A stretch of DNA of 64,000 nt from Mitsuokella multacida DSM 20544. GTDB lineage: Bacteria; Bacillota; Negativicutes; Selenomonadales; Selenomonadaceae. Below the pieces are notes generated by a model. That model ran no database searches. It was given only the letters and a program-made list of their open reading frames with translations, and was not told the DNA's origin. The stretch is taken from NCBI RefSeq assembly GCF_000155955.1, contig NZ_GG697141.2, forward strand, positions 754,855 to 818,854, written 5' to 3'. This document shows, in pieces, positions 2,053-57,420 of the stretch. A program made the translations under genes and the position numbers. Numbering within the stretch: the stretch's first letter is position 1; each line of letters begins with the position of its first letter.

Positions 2053-2208
2053 AAAAAAGAGGCCATCGCATCGCTGCGACAGCCTCTGTTGTTTTCGGTC
2101 GAAGGGCGCCGGCTCCCATCACGTTGACTTGTGGTTGGCGTTCAAATCAATGGACTTGACTGGAGCCGGCAAGATAAAGCCTTTCGGCTTGCCAACCTAC
2201 CCCCTTCA
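2053..2208 (-). ncRNA. Structured RNA with pseudoknot, family unknown
   Basis: A stand-alone RNA of about 150 nt is predicted on the minus strand. A TATAAT lies at 2215-2220, and transcription would start near 2208. P1 pairs 2202-2207 with 2101-2106 (GAAGGG/CCCTTC). P2 is a perfect 9-bp stem, 2162-2170 with 2108-2116 (GCCGGCTCC/GGAGCCGGC). A GAAA-capped hairpin sits at 2177-2190. A perfect 7-bp pairing joins 2191-2197 (GGTTGGC on the RNA) with 2133-2139 (GCCAACC) in the apical loop, making a pseudoknot. A terminator hairpin (2058-2087) followed by six U residues ends it. The size recalls 6S RNA, but I see no decisive match to any family. It fills most of the gap between the exonuclease and LysR genes. 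Confidence 0.6.
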
Positions 2209-2320
2209 TCTATTATTATACTGGATGGCACCCCCCGATGAAAGGGAGTGTCCATCGTAGAATCCTACAAAAATTACGGTTGACGCACTCAAAACGGCCT
2301 CAAAAGCCCATCAAGATCCA

Positions 2321-3215: not shown

Positions 3216-3614
3216 ATGCAAAATCTCTTACTCGTCTTCATCGGCGGCGGTCTCGGCGCCGTCTGCCGCTACATCAGCACGACGCACATCGGCGCGCTCT
3301 TCGGCACGTACTTCCCGTTCGGCACGCTGTTCGTCAATACGCTCGGCAGCCTGCTCATGGGCTTCATCATGGGCTCGCTCATCTTCCTGATGGAAAAGAC
3401 GGGCCTGCGGCTCGCCGAGCCGGCCCGCCTGCTCCTGACCGTCGGTTTTCTCGGCGGCTTCACGACGTTCTCTTCGTTCAGCCTCGAGACCGTCACCCTG
3501 CTCGAGGGCGGCAGCTTCTTCTACGCGGCCATGAACATCGCAGCCAATCTCGGCCTCTGTTTCCTAGCGGCGTTCTTGGGCCTCAGCCTTGCCAGGACCC
3601 TCGCGGCCTTCTGA
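3216..3614 (+). CDS. crcB: Fluoride channel CrcB/FluC
   Basis: A 132-residue membrane protein with four hydrophobic segments, the normal size for a Fluc subunit, which forms a dual-topology dimer exporting fluoride. Family motifs are visible: GGGLGAVCRY at the N-terminus, GTLFVNTLGSLLMG in helix 2, and GFLGGFTTFSSFSLE in the helix-3 break, where Phe and Thr residues line the pore and bind the structural sodium. A single complete copy suggests a homodimer. The start has a strong ribosome site (aaaggaggatatt). It is monocistronic, with its own promoter, and convergent with the GH84 gene 12 bases downstream. Confidence 0.93.
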   Translation: MQNLLLVFIGGGLGAVCRYISTTHIGALFGTYFPFGTLFVNTLGSLLMGFIMGSLIFLMEKTGLRLAEPARLLLTVGFLGGFTTFSSFSLETVTLLEGGSFFYAAMNIAANLGLCFLAAFLGLSLARTLAAF

Positions 3615-3626
3615 GCCATTAAGCCG

Positions 3627-5075
3627 TCAGCGCCGCTTCGCCACATTGCGGACAAAGGCGCCCATCGCCTGTTCGCTGACCTTTGCCTCCAGCTCCTGCT
3701 GCTCGATTGTCATAAACTCTCGTTGCAGCTGAGCCTGGAGGCGTCTTTCGTTCTGACTGTCATTTGCCTGCTGGGCCTGCAGCAGGTCAAGTGCCGTCTT
3801 CGTGGCAGCAGCGAGACGCACCGTCTGCTCGAGCTGCGGGCGGCACTCCTCAAGCTGCTCGGGCGGCAGCTTCCTCAGGAGCCTCTGGGCGGCCTTGGCG
3901 CGCGCCGCGGCCATCTGTCTGAGGGCCTTATGGTCCGCCTTGGCCCCTTCTCTATCCGGCCAACGCTCCAGCAGCCGCTCGGCACACGCTGCAAAATCCG
4001 GGTCATCAGCGAGCCCGATCGAGGCCCAGTCATTCTCGAGATGACGCGAGCCTGCGGCGAAGAGCGTCATGTCGCTCGCGAGCGGCCCGTACTGCTCCTT
4101 GATGGCCGCCTGCCACGCCTTCTCGGGATCGTAGTGCTCAGGGTCCTTCGCGTAGTCGGCCCCTGTCGCGAGCGCGATCTTCGACAGGGCTTCGTACTTC
4201 ATCGGGTTGAAGAAGATGGCGGGCAGATTTCCCTTCGGCAACGGGTCTACAGGACCAAGGGCGAGCTTTGACTCCATGTAGTCGTTGACGGGATAGTTCC
4301 ACCAGATGCCGAGTTCGCGCCCGTAGAGCTTCTCCGCCTTGGCGAGCGCTTCATCTGTCAGCGGGCCCTTGGCCACGCCGTCACCCGTGTAGAGTACTAG
4401 GATGTCAGGCGAGAGTGTCCGCGCAAATGCATCCGTATAGGGCTTGCGCGCCCCGTCCACCTGCATGTCCGCATAGAAGTACTCCGTCGGCACCGTCAGG
4501 AAACTACCGATGTCATCATGGCGCTTCTTGAGCTCGCGTGCGACATCGTTGAGGAAGACGGCCTGTCCCGCGCCGTCCTTGTCCTTGATATCGTCAAAGA
4601 AGATGGCGAAGTCGCGCACGCCGAGCGCATAGAGCGTCTCGAGCTTCGCGATCATCTTCTGGCGGTCGACAAAGCCCTTATAGCCGTGCAGCGAGACATC
4701 GAGTCCCGGCGATACGGCGAAGATGAAGCGCACATCCTGCGCCTTCGCCGCCTTGACGAGCGCACCGAGCTCCGAGAGCTTCTCCGCAGGATACGGCTCA
4801 CGCCACTTCTCACGATGATACGGATCATCCTTCGGCGCGTAGAGATAAGCGTTGTAGCCTTCTGCGCGACAGAATGAGAGGATGTCGAGCCGGTCGCTCT
4901 GCTGCCACGGCGTGCCGTAGAAGCCCTCGATGACGCCGCGCAGCGGCACAGGCGCCGCCGAGGCCGTGCCAGAGGTCCCTGCAACAAATACCGCACTGCT
5001 CAGGAGCAAGCCCCCAAAGCAGGCGCCCATCTTCTCCACGCGTCTCTTTTTATTCCAAAGCCGTATCACACACAT
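3627..5075 (-). CDS. Secreted GH84 beta-N-acetylglucosaminidase
   Basis: A 482-residue protein with a Sec signal peptide (basic residues 6-15, hydrophobic core 18-35, cleavage near ASA/AP at 40). The catalytic barrel begins with GVIEGFYGTPW (48-57), the hallmark of glycoside hydrolase family 84. The catalytic Asp pair is in IFFDDIKD (D161, D162), used in substrate-assisted hydrolysis through the acetamido group. Family members remove GlcNAc from glycoproteins or act as hyaluronidases. The protein stops after a C-terminal helical segment and lacks the carbohydrate-binding and FIVAR modules common in clostridial homologues. It may act on host glycans or on the cell's own wall sugars; location is periplasmic or secreted. 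Confidence 0.9.
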   Translation of the reverse strand: MCVIRLWNKKRRVEKMGACFGGLLLSSAVFVAGTSGTASAAPVPLRGVIEGFYGTPWQQSDRLDILSFCRAEGYNAYLYAPKDDPYHREKWREPYPAEKLSELGALVKAAKAQDVRFIFAVSPGLDVSLHGYKGFVDRQKMIAKLETLYALGVRDFAIFFDDIKDKDGAGQAVFLNDVARELKKRHDDIGSFLTVPTEYFYADMQVDGARKPYTDAFARTLSPDILVLYTGDGVAKGPLTDEALAKAEKLYGRELGIWWNYPVNDYMESKLALGPVDPLPKGNLPAIFFNPMKYEALSKIALATGADYAKDPEHYDPEKAWQAAIKEQYGPLASDMTLFAAGSRHLENDWASIGLADDPDFAACAERLLERWPDREGAKADHKALRQMAAARAKAAQRLLRKLPPEQLEECRPQLEQTVRLAAATKTALDLLQAQQANDSQNERRLQAQLQREFMTIEQQELEAKVSEQAMGAFVRNVAKRR

Positions 5076-55991: not shown

Positions 55992-56031
55992 AAATCCTGC
56001 TGCATCTGGAAATCCAGATGCGGCAGGATTT
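55992..56031 (-). terminator. Terminator of the OFA-type MFS gene
   Basis: A 17-bp nearly perfect hairpin (AAATCCTGC/GCAGGATTT outside, GCATCTGG/CCAGATGC inside) with TTTTTGG on the minus strand. Confidence 0.85.
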
Positions 56032-56045
56032 GCTGACCCCGGCGC

Positions 56046-56089
56046 CGCCAACCAAGCGTGACGCTATGCCTAGCGCCACGCGCCAACCA
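56046..56089. repeat. Small hairpin between 9-base direct repeats
   Basis: The direct repeat cgccaacca occurs at 56046-56054 and 56081-56089. The 26 bases between contain an 11-bp stem (one G-U) with a four-base loop. It lies between the MFS stop and its terminator. Confidence 0.6.
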
Positions 56090-56126
56090 TAGAGAGCCGG
56101 AGTCAAAGGGTTTGTCGATATAGAGA

Positions 56127-57264
56127 TTAAATTGCCGTGCGCGTCTCCTTCTTGCGCTGGCCATACTGCTTGAGCACGGCGGCGATGATGAAGTTGAGCA
56201 CGAAGCAGGCGGCGAAGAAGTAGAGCGAGGCCGTGTAGCCGCCCGTCTGTGCATGGAAGTACGAGACGATGGACGGGCCGGCGACGCCCGCGAGGCCCCA
56301 GGCCGTCAGGATGCGGCCGTGGATGGCGCTGAGCTGGCGCGTGCCGAAGATATCGGAGAGATAGGCCGGCATGCACGAGAAGCCACCGCCGTAGCAGCTG
56401 ATGATCAGCAACACGAGCAGCTCAAAGACGAAGGCTTCTCTCGTCTGGCCGAGCTGCCAGAACGCGAGGACCTCGAGCAGGAAGAAGAGCATGTAGACGC
56501 GGCCGCGGCCGATGTAGTCGGAGACCGTCGACCAGACGATGCGCCCGCCGCCGTTGAAGACGCCGATGATGCCGACCATCGACGCCGCAGGTGATGTTGA
56601 CGAAGAAGATCCACCAGAGCGAGGCGAACTGCCAGGTCTTGAGAGCCTCATTGGCCGTCACACCCTGCTGGATGTGCGTGACCTTGCCCGTGCTGTCCTT
56701 GAGGACGGGCGGCTTGAGGTACAGAGAGGACGCGCCCATGATGAGCATGTAGACGCAGCCGAGGATCAGGAAGTTGTTGACGAGGCCGACGGTCGCCGTC
56801 AGGTACTGCATGACCGGGCCCGCAATGAGTGCGGCGAAGCCAAAGCCCATGATGGCAAGCCTCGTCGCAAAGCCGCGATGGTCCGGGAAGTACTTGACGA
56901 GCGTCGAGACCGGCGTGATGTAGCCGACGCCGAGGCCGATGCCGCCGATGACGCCGTAGAAGAGATACAGGAGCGTCAGGCTCTGCGCCGCGATGGCGTA
57001 GGCCGTGCCGAGCATGCCCGTGCCGAAGAACGCCATGGCGATGAGGCCGCTCTTTTTCGGGCCAATCTTCTCGACGAAGCTGCCGAGGAAGCCGGCGGAA
57101 AAGCCGAGGAACAGGATGGCTAACGAGAAGGTCCAGGTCGTCTCGGCGAGCGAGAAGCCCATCTCCTTCATGATGGGGCGCGTCAGCACGCTCCATGCGT
57201 AGACGCTGCCGATCGAGATGTGGATCCCGACGGCGCTCAGTGCGATAAGCCAGCGATTTCTCAT
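56127..57264 (-). pseudogene. OFA-family MFS transporter (oxalate/formate or lactate), internal deletion
   Basis: The N-terminal 230 residues read MRNRWLIALSAVGIHISIGS to LWWIFFVNITCG. The C-terminal part reads ASMVGIIGVFNGGGRIVWS to the stop at 56127, but in another frame. The join lies near 56585. Intact OFA proteins have about 20-25 residues between those two conserved segments; these are absent. A deletion of about 70 bases therefore removed part of helix 7 and shifted the frame. Either the gene is broken or the assembly collapsed there. The start at 57264 has GGAGG eight bases upstream. A structured leader precedes it. Confidence 0.85.
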
Positions 57265-57312
57265 TTGATCTACCTCCAGAGATGCTCGGGGCATCTGCGG
57301 GGGTAGCAAAAA

Positions 57313-57420
57313 GACCGTCCGGAACAGATACCCTGCCCAGACGGTCGGCTGATCATGACATTGCAGGACATGTGGTCAATTCCACTCATCCGTCAGCCCT
57401 GCAAGGCTCTTTCTTTTTTC
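57313..57420 (-). promoter_or_regulatory. Riboswitch-like leader of the OFA transporter
   Basis: From a start near 57420 the RNA forms P1 TTGCAGG/CCTGCAA (57398-57404 with 57361-57367) around an internal loop and P2 GTGG/CCAC (57382-57385 with 57372-57375). GACGG in the internal loop (57390-57394) can pair with CCGTC (57340-57344), which is also the 5' arm of the intrinsic terminator (57313-57346, then TTTTT). The segment CCGTCTGGGCA resembles the 3' CCGCCTGGGC signature of ZTP riboswitches, and P2 resembles theirs, but the GGGGAGCG element is not found. Confidence 0.65.

Follow-up and report, generated by a model that had tools for sequence, protein, structure and literature searches.

A segment of the Mitsuokella multacida DSM 20544 chromosome, on the minus strand between positions 2220 and 2053 of the 64,000-nucleotide stretch analysed here (the window), has in our estimate about an even chance of encoding a stand-alone base-pairing regulatory RNA of approximately 150 nt that belongs to a new family, and whose hairpin-loop seed could be masked by the RNA's own 5' arm. 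This reading is built on comparison of genome sequences, in which we found a conserved structure, a gene-like anatomy with -10 box and terminator, a conserved loop, and conserved complements of that loop. The features are collected in Table 1.

Table 1. Coordinates in the window of the elements of the putative RNA and of the transporter locus carrying complements of its loop.
Feature	Position	Strand	Remark
-10 box TATAAT	2215..2220	-	NATAMT-form box at the same position in 13/13 copies (by eye, upstream sequences)
Structured core, 113 nt	2098..2210	-	Identity to M. jalaludinii vs 49% in flanks; covariance models R1/R2
P1 5' strand GAAGGG	2202..2207	-	Pairs with CCCTTC 2106-2101
P1 3' strand CCCTTC	2101..2106	-	Pairs with 2207-2202
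P2 GGTA/TATC	2201-2198 / 2176-2173	-	Encloses P3
5' arm GGTTGGC	2191..2197	-	Pseudoknot partner of the P6 loop; in 9/13 copies (one is GGTTGGT)
P3 hairpin GCC-GAAA-GGC	2179..2188	-	Inside P2
P4 5' strand GCCGGCTCC	2162..2170	-	Pairs with 2116-2108; covaries
P4 3' strand GGAGCCGGC	2108..2116	-	Pairs with 2170-2162
P6 hairpin TGATTTG-AACGCCAACCA-CAAGTCA	2125..2149	-	Stem 2149-2143 / 2131-2125; stem covaries, loop nearly invariant
Loop GCCAACC	2133..2139	-	Pseudoknot strand, proposed seed
Intrinsic terminator	2053..2087	-	Hairpin 2087-2058 and T run
Site 1, TGGTTGGCG, 9-nt loop complement	56081..56089	-	3' UTR of L-lactate-type MFS transporter; proposed target/decoy
Site 2, TGGTTGGCG, 9-nt loop complement	56046..56054	-	Same 3' UTR; aligned in three g1 genomes
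Structured 3' UTR element, stem GACTCCGGC/GCCGGGGTC	56030..56105	-	Frames both sites; z -4.59, 0/200 shuffles
ZTP riboswitch	57328..57410	-	Upstream of the transporter gene; 48.7 bits, cut-off 39

From 5' to 3', the locus consists of a TATAAT box, the core and, after a short linker, a hairpin terminator with its T run. An earlier note on this DNA had proposed that the RNA has a promoter and a terminator of its own. The terminator is indeed present on the minus strand, and we recovered one in 12 of the 13 copies of the RNA described below, seven by a strict script, two by their fold (L015 and L016, with long stems) and three by eye (L018, L019, L037); two scans of the L004 copy found none. The promoter fared less well, for although the TATAAT is perfect and a -10-like box stands in every copy, we could recognise no -35 box here and none is conserved among the 13 copies, and a promoter scan of the minus strand called no promoter at the TATAAT. 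Directly upstream of this box, at 2225-2260, we also noticed by eye an imperfect inverted repeat, GATGG..CACTCCC..GGGGGGTG..CCATC, which appears to be absent from M. jalaludinii (by eye). The neighbouring LysR-type gene starts at 1906, 147 bases beyond position 2053 and thus where it had been placed (about 150 bases on), while the statement that no open reading frame overlaps the RNA has to be withdrawn, because a mechanical 80-aa plus-strand frame (2018-2260) does. A coding role for the RNA itself was rejected, as the sense-strand copies differ by indels of lengths not divisible by three, and no open frame persists among them (by eye).

All the pairings previously listed on the minus strand are present, including the GAAA-capped hairpin, the perfect 9-bp stem (formerly called P2, here P4), and the loop-to-linker pseudoknot in which GGTTGGC is complementary to GCCAACC; to these we add two more, here named P2 and P6. 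The 6 bp given for P1 apply to this genome, but the helix has 5 bp in three genomes of genus g17 (A.C). In a possible fold of the core, P1 closes the whole, P2 surrounds P3, and the remaining helices are the 9-bp P4, the short P5 and P6; GCCAACC lies in the 11-nt P6 loop, AACGCCAACCA. Calculated without the pseudoknot, the minimum free energy is -67.6 kcal/mol (z -4.88), and the loop has a probability of 0.98 of being unpaired in the ensemble. It had also been argued that the perfect complements are unlikely by chance. This is borne out for the fold as a whole, since none of 200 shuffles folded as stably, but not so clearly for the 7-nt complement of the loop, which arose in 2213 of 100000 shufflings of the 5' segment. 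We therefore find the RNA structure convincing because it is conserved, and not because of a single-sequence statistic.

Using covariance models, we accepted the RNA in 13 of 189 genomes of the family; the models listed 14, of which G076 was rejected (its match, L039, was dropped as a chance hit with a loop lacking GCCAACC), and a search of 380 genomes of the class returned the same 14. All three genomes of genus g1 and all three of g17, both Mitsuokella-like, carry the RNA, and the models revealed it in a third genus, g16, where 7 of 22 genomes have it. When 151 genomes of the family were searched at the DNA level, eight had given a match, six of which are the RNA; the other two, L007 (terminator only) and L008, were dropped as chance, as were the matches G009/L017 and G045/L020. 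With a pattern scan we found the RNA in M. jalaludinii DSM 13811, Mitsuokella sp. oral taxon 131, two Mitsuokella MAGs and one Selenomonadaceae MAG. There is a single copy in the present genome, plasmid and phage records contained no match to the RNA, and viral contigs contained no match to its exact pattern.

This genome and M. jalaludinii agree at 113 of 113 core positions, compared with 49% identity over the 100 bases before the -10 box and 50% over the 100 bases past the terminator. In a comparison of five distinct Mitsuokella-type sequences, pairs are formed in 96.9% of cells, and six pairs have changed on both sides, a count reached in 5 of 500 shuffles; the 9 cells and the covariation score were each equalled in 0 of 500. 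When the partners were slid by 1-3 columns, only 0-3 two-sided pairs were left. A measure of further pair types gave no signal in these five sequences (359 of 500 shuffles as high). The pair counts were made without alignments A1 (mixed strands), A5 (two reverse-strand rows), A6 (P4 shifted in g16) and A7. The two-sided changes are confined to P4 and P6, so the covariation that the earlier note asked for in homologues was found in P4-P6, whereas P1 and the pseudoknot, like P2, are conserved but hardly vary across the five sequences. In the pseudoknot all 35 of 35 cells are paired, with one change to G-U and no two-sided change, and because the helix is otherwise invariant, covariation cannot serve as a test of it.

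The loop is nearly invariant over three genera while its stem has been rewritten. In four g16 copies, L015, L016, L018 and L019 (from G098, G108, G134 and G079), the 5' arm is missing and the loop retains ACGCCAACCAC, which is suggestive of a loop that matters even without an internal partner, although loop conservation among four such closely related copies has little power. In the g16 copies L036-L038 the 5' part is otherwise very different, with both GGTTGGC and GCCAACC kept, and L037 has a changed loop, AATGCCAACC. The predicted folds of these three full-length copies are no more stable than those of shuffled sequences (z -0.08, -1.58 and -0.64), while L003, L006, L015 and L016, folded together with the whole or the greater part of their terminators, gave z-scores of -4.50, -4.04, -7.60 and -8.42.

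The same conservation could be read differently, namely as that of a structured RNA associated with a protein or with the ribosome, in which the pseudoknot would be architectural, GCCAACC would be a protein recognition loop, and the complements in mRNAs would be incidental. Such an RNA would explain why this genome and M. jalaludinii share an unchanged core rather than an unchanged loop alone, and why all nine full-length copies have an intact pseudoknot helix. The four copies that lost the arm and kept the loop argue in the other direction, and we regard this explanation as possible but rather doubtful.

We then considered whether the RNA might belong to one of its neighbours. In this genome and in G039, the terminator is followed by a co-directional LysR-type gene, as would be the case if the RNA were its cis-acting leader, i.e. 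a riboswitch or an attenuator. However, among nine loci with ORFs listed, the next gene is convergent in six (L003 and L005 of g17; L015, L016, L036 and L038 of g16), with NFACT domains in the case of L003, and a co-directional LysR gene is found in two (the window and L006), L004 being unassigned. No conserved co-directional downstream gene was thus found in these nine loci, and because the next gene is convergent in most of them, the RNA does not appear to be tied to a downstream gene. Nor did any Rfam riboswitch match the RNA at E up to 10, and we consider a LysR leader highly unlikely.

On the other side, the homologues do adjoin the same exonuclease gene: in five of five Mitsuokella-like loci with ORFs listed, the RNA is preceded on its own strand by an exonuclease-like gene, whose family was confirmed for two of these. 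This arrangement, and a scan that found no strong terminator between that gene and the RNA, would fit an RNA that is no independent gene but part of the exonuclease mRNA, as its 3' UTR or as a fragment processed from it. We find this very unlikely, given that the -10 box sits at the boundary of conservation and that in the g16 locus L036 the RNA is instead divergent from a pyruvate formate-lyase-like gene (by eye, the remaining g16 copies have a similar flank). Beyond the exonuclease gene, the window contains a CrcB-like gene (3216-3614, plus strand) and a beta-N-acetylglucosaminidase-type gene (3627-5075, minus strand).

A search against Rfam 15, which the earlier note had recommended, returned no family at the gathering cut-off over the RNA, either here or in seven relatives. 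The best match on the minus strand was sroE (18.6 bits against a cut-off of 51), and at the terminator region there were weak matches to MIR9481 in L016 (23.5 against 130) and to STnc250 in L036 (23.5 against 42, on the opposite strand). The size had invited a comparison with 6S RNA (RF00013), which is of similar length; identity with 6S RNA was rejected, since the only 6S match of the genome, which is above cut-off, lies elsewhere (C6:1318954-1319126). The note's broader reading, of an apparently stand-alone structured RNA outside the catalogued families, is supported by the comparison. The compact, pseudoknotted and ribozyme-sized fold might also suggest an undescribed self-cleaving ribozyme, but no Rfam ribozyme matched at E up to 10, there is one copy in this genome and none in phage or plasmid records, and the exact pattern is missing from viral contigs, all of which makes a ribozyme extremely improbable.

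Literature searches turned up no description of such an RNA in Mitsuokella, although an earlier, unnamed listing in the supplements of large motif surveys is possible. None of the names we looked for occurs in the main text of PMC11109978 and PMC8040213. Structured RNAs reported in the same class, Negativicutes, are the gltD and ldh2 motifs (PMC8632094) and the SLH motif (PMC6429828), of which gltD and SLH are riboswitch candidates. The three motifs are described as lying mostly in front of genes, whereas the present RNA is no leader in most of the loci that we read.

Returning to the base-pairing RNA as the preferred reading, we infer its transcription, the masking of its loop, its pairing in the cell and the direction of regulation in the following way. 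The seed would be the P6 loop GCCAACC (ACGCCAACCAC in most copies), held in the resting RNA in a pseudoknot by the 5' arm GGTTGGC. Messenger RNAs offering a longer complement, for example TGGTTGGCG or GTGGTTGGC, could push the arm aside. The strongest candidate partner in the three nearest genomes is the 3' UTR of an mRNA for an L-lactate-type transporter linked to a ZTP riboswitch, where the site would probably act either as a decoy (sponge) or as a site controlling mRNA stability, the data being compatible with both.

The transporter site emerged among the GTGGTTGGC sites of five further genomes. In G039, the stretch separating an MFS transporter gene from mgsA forms a strong hairpin just before a terminator; on the gene strand, its loop displays GTGGTTGGCGTTC, which is perfectly complementary to GAACGCCAACCAC over 13 nt. 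This transporter scores 369 (cut-off 320) with the NCBIfam model for L-lactate MFS transporters, and its leader contains a ZTP riboswitch (L104 2843-2924). A search with GAACGCCAACCAC gave 30 matches, of which seven are the RNA and one is L104; the remaining 22, mostly in stretches that recur between genomes and with no flanking stem (by eye), were discarded. The same transporter-mgsA gene pair, again with a ZTP riboswitch, is found in the window (Table 1), and M. jalaludinii (G010), whose 3' UTR was located by synteny, also has both 9-nt sites. In the three-way alignment of the g1 genomes, site 2 is an invariant block amid diverged DNA. As many GGTTGGC motifs were seen in 2 (own UTR), 0 (G010) and 31 (G039, which has one site) of 2000 dinucleotide shuffles, and as low a pairing energy in 15, 13 and 0 of 2000, respectively, the G010 stretch reaching into the 3' end of the transporter coding sequence. 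The computed duplexes have energies of -16.8 and -17.4 kcal/mol (own), -18.2 kcal/mol (G010, site 2) and -25.2 kcal/mol (G039), against a weaker -14.1 kcal/mol for the RNA's own arm with the loop, although the two sites in the window lie partly within predicted stems that would have to open. The terminator scan made no call for the hairpin after the transporter element, though the fold shows one. The window's transporter gene (56127-57309, minus strand) is split into two overlapping frames, 57309-56422 and 56651-56127, where the G039 copy is one frame of 402 aa, which would be due to a frameshift or an assembly error.

A conserved seed is thus accompanied by conserved complements in mRNA, the latter in the three g1 genomes only; in g17 and g16 this UTR was not found, the search there covering one 20-kb stretch of G017, chosen by synteny, that contained no transporter. 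The recurrence of complements in the same 3' UTR of three genomes speaks against the protein- or ribosome-associated RNA, where they should be incidental.

A second, weaker candidate for a target, compared with the transporter 3' UTR, is the 5' UTR of carD. This genome has 21 GTGGTTGGC sites against 9 for the reversed pattern, and five further genomes have 84 against 64, so that the motif is not clearly enriched. We examined 103 sites in the six genomes, i.e. the 21 and 82 of the 84, omitting the two that belong to the RNA itself in G039 and G121; among the 103, another four likewise fall in the RNA, in other genomes. Stems scoring at least 8 occurred at 2 of the 103 sites and at 70 of 4120 random positions, which is no enrichment, and stems scoring at least 10 at 2 of 103 and 17 of 4120. 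In G000, the carD site was the sole one resembling a 5' UTR site (by eye); it was picked after scanning 21 sites, lies approximately 25 nt before the start, and precedes a gene with CarD domains. GGTTGGC is present in the carD 5' UTR of all three g1 genomes, though that of G039 has diverged, and is absent from 17 other carD UTRs, 10 of them from genomes bearing the RNA (the protein was found in 21 of 25 genomes, and 20 UTRs were taken, L076 being left out). Pairing is predicted to be of modest strength there, with 9, 7 and 27 of 300 shuffles equalling it in the three g1 genomes, and two g17 carD UTRs without GGTTGGC scored alike (30 and 19 of 300). The carD duplex has -16.8 kcal/mol in this genome and -14.9 kcal/mol in G039, where it barely beats the RNA's own arm.

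Lastly, a loop GCCAACCAC caps the terminator of a gene for a universal stress protein (Usp) in this genome (L045 1487-1522, on C5 near 577040; loop ATGCCAACCAC, the same 9-mer as in the RNA loop). Recurrence of the motif outside the RNA is in favour of a protein recognition loop, and either a protein-binding or a decoy role could explain it.

RsaE, RNAIII and similar small RNAs of Firmicutes act in trans through a C-rich seed in a hairpin loop, a seed of the UCCC anti-Shine-Dalgarno type. The present RNA has in common with them a gene-like anatomy, a C-rich loop, a terminator and complements in mRNAs, but its loop is GCCAACC rather than UCCC and is complementary to its own 5' arm, and no Rfam model of a small RNA reaches its cut-off over it. 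We rate it as a new family with an unusual self-complementary seed. Sponges of small RNAs in the 3' UTRs of mRNAs are likewise a known class, and the transporter site resembles them in placing a seed complement between stop codon and terminator; the difference is that the putative site here belongs to a host gene with a ZTP riboswitch. On a more speculative note, and in our view unlikely, the small RNA would keep its seed locked with an internal copy of its target sequence, and a dedicated pre-terminator element of the ZTP-riboswitch-controlled transporter mRNA, with its seed complements, would both unlock and titrate it, in which case one-carbon or purine status would feed into a small-RNA network that may reach the RNA-polymerase regulator CarD and fermentation genes. 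The loop's partner within this compact RNA, the copies from another genus that naturally lack it, and the 3' UTR site in the same 64-kb window would together make the putative gating of a small-RNA seed directly testable by mutation.
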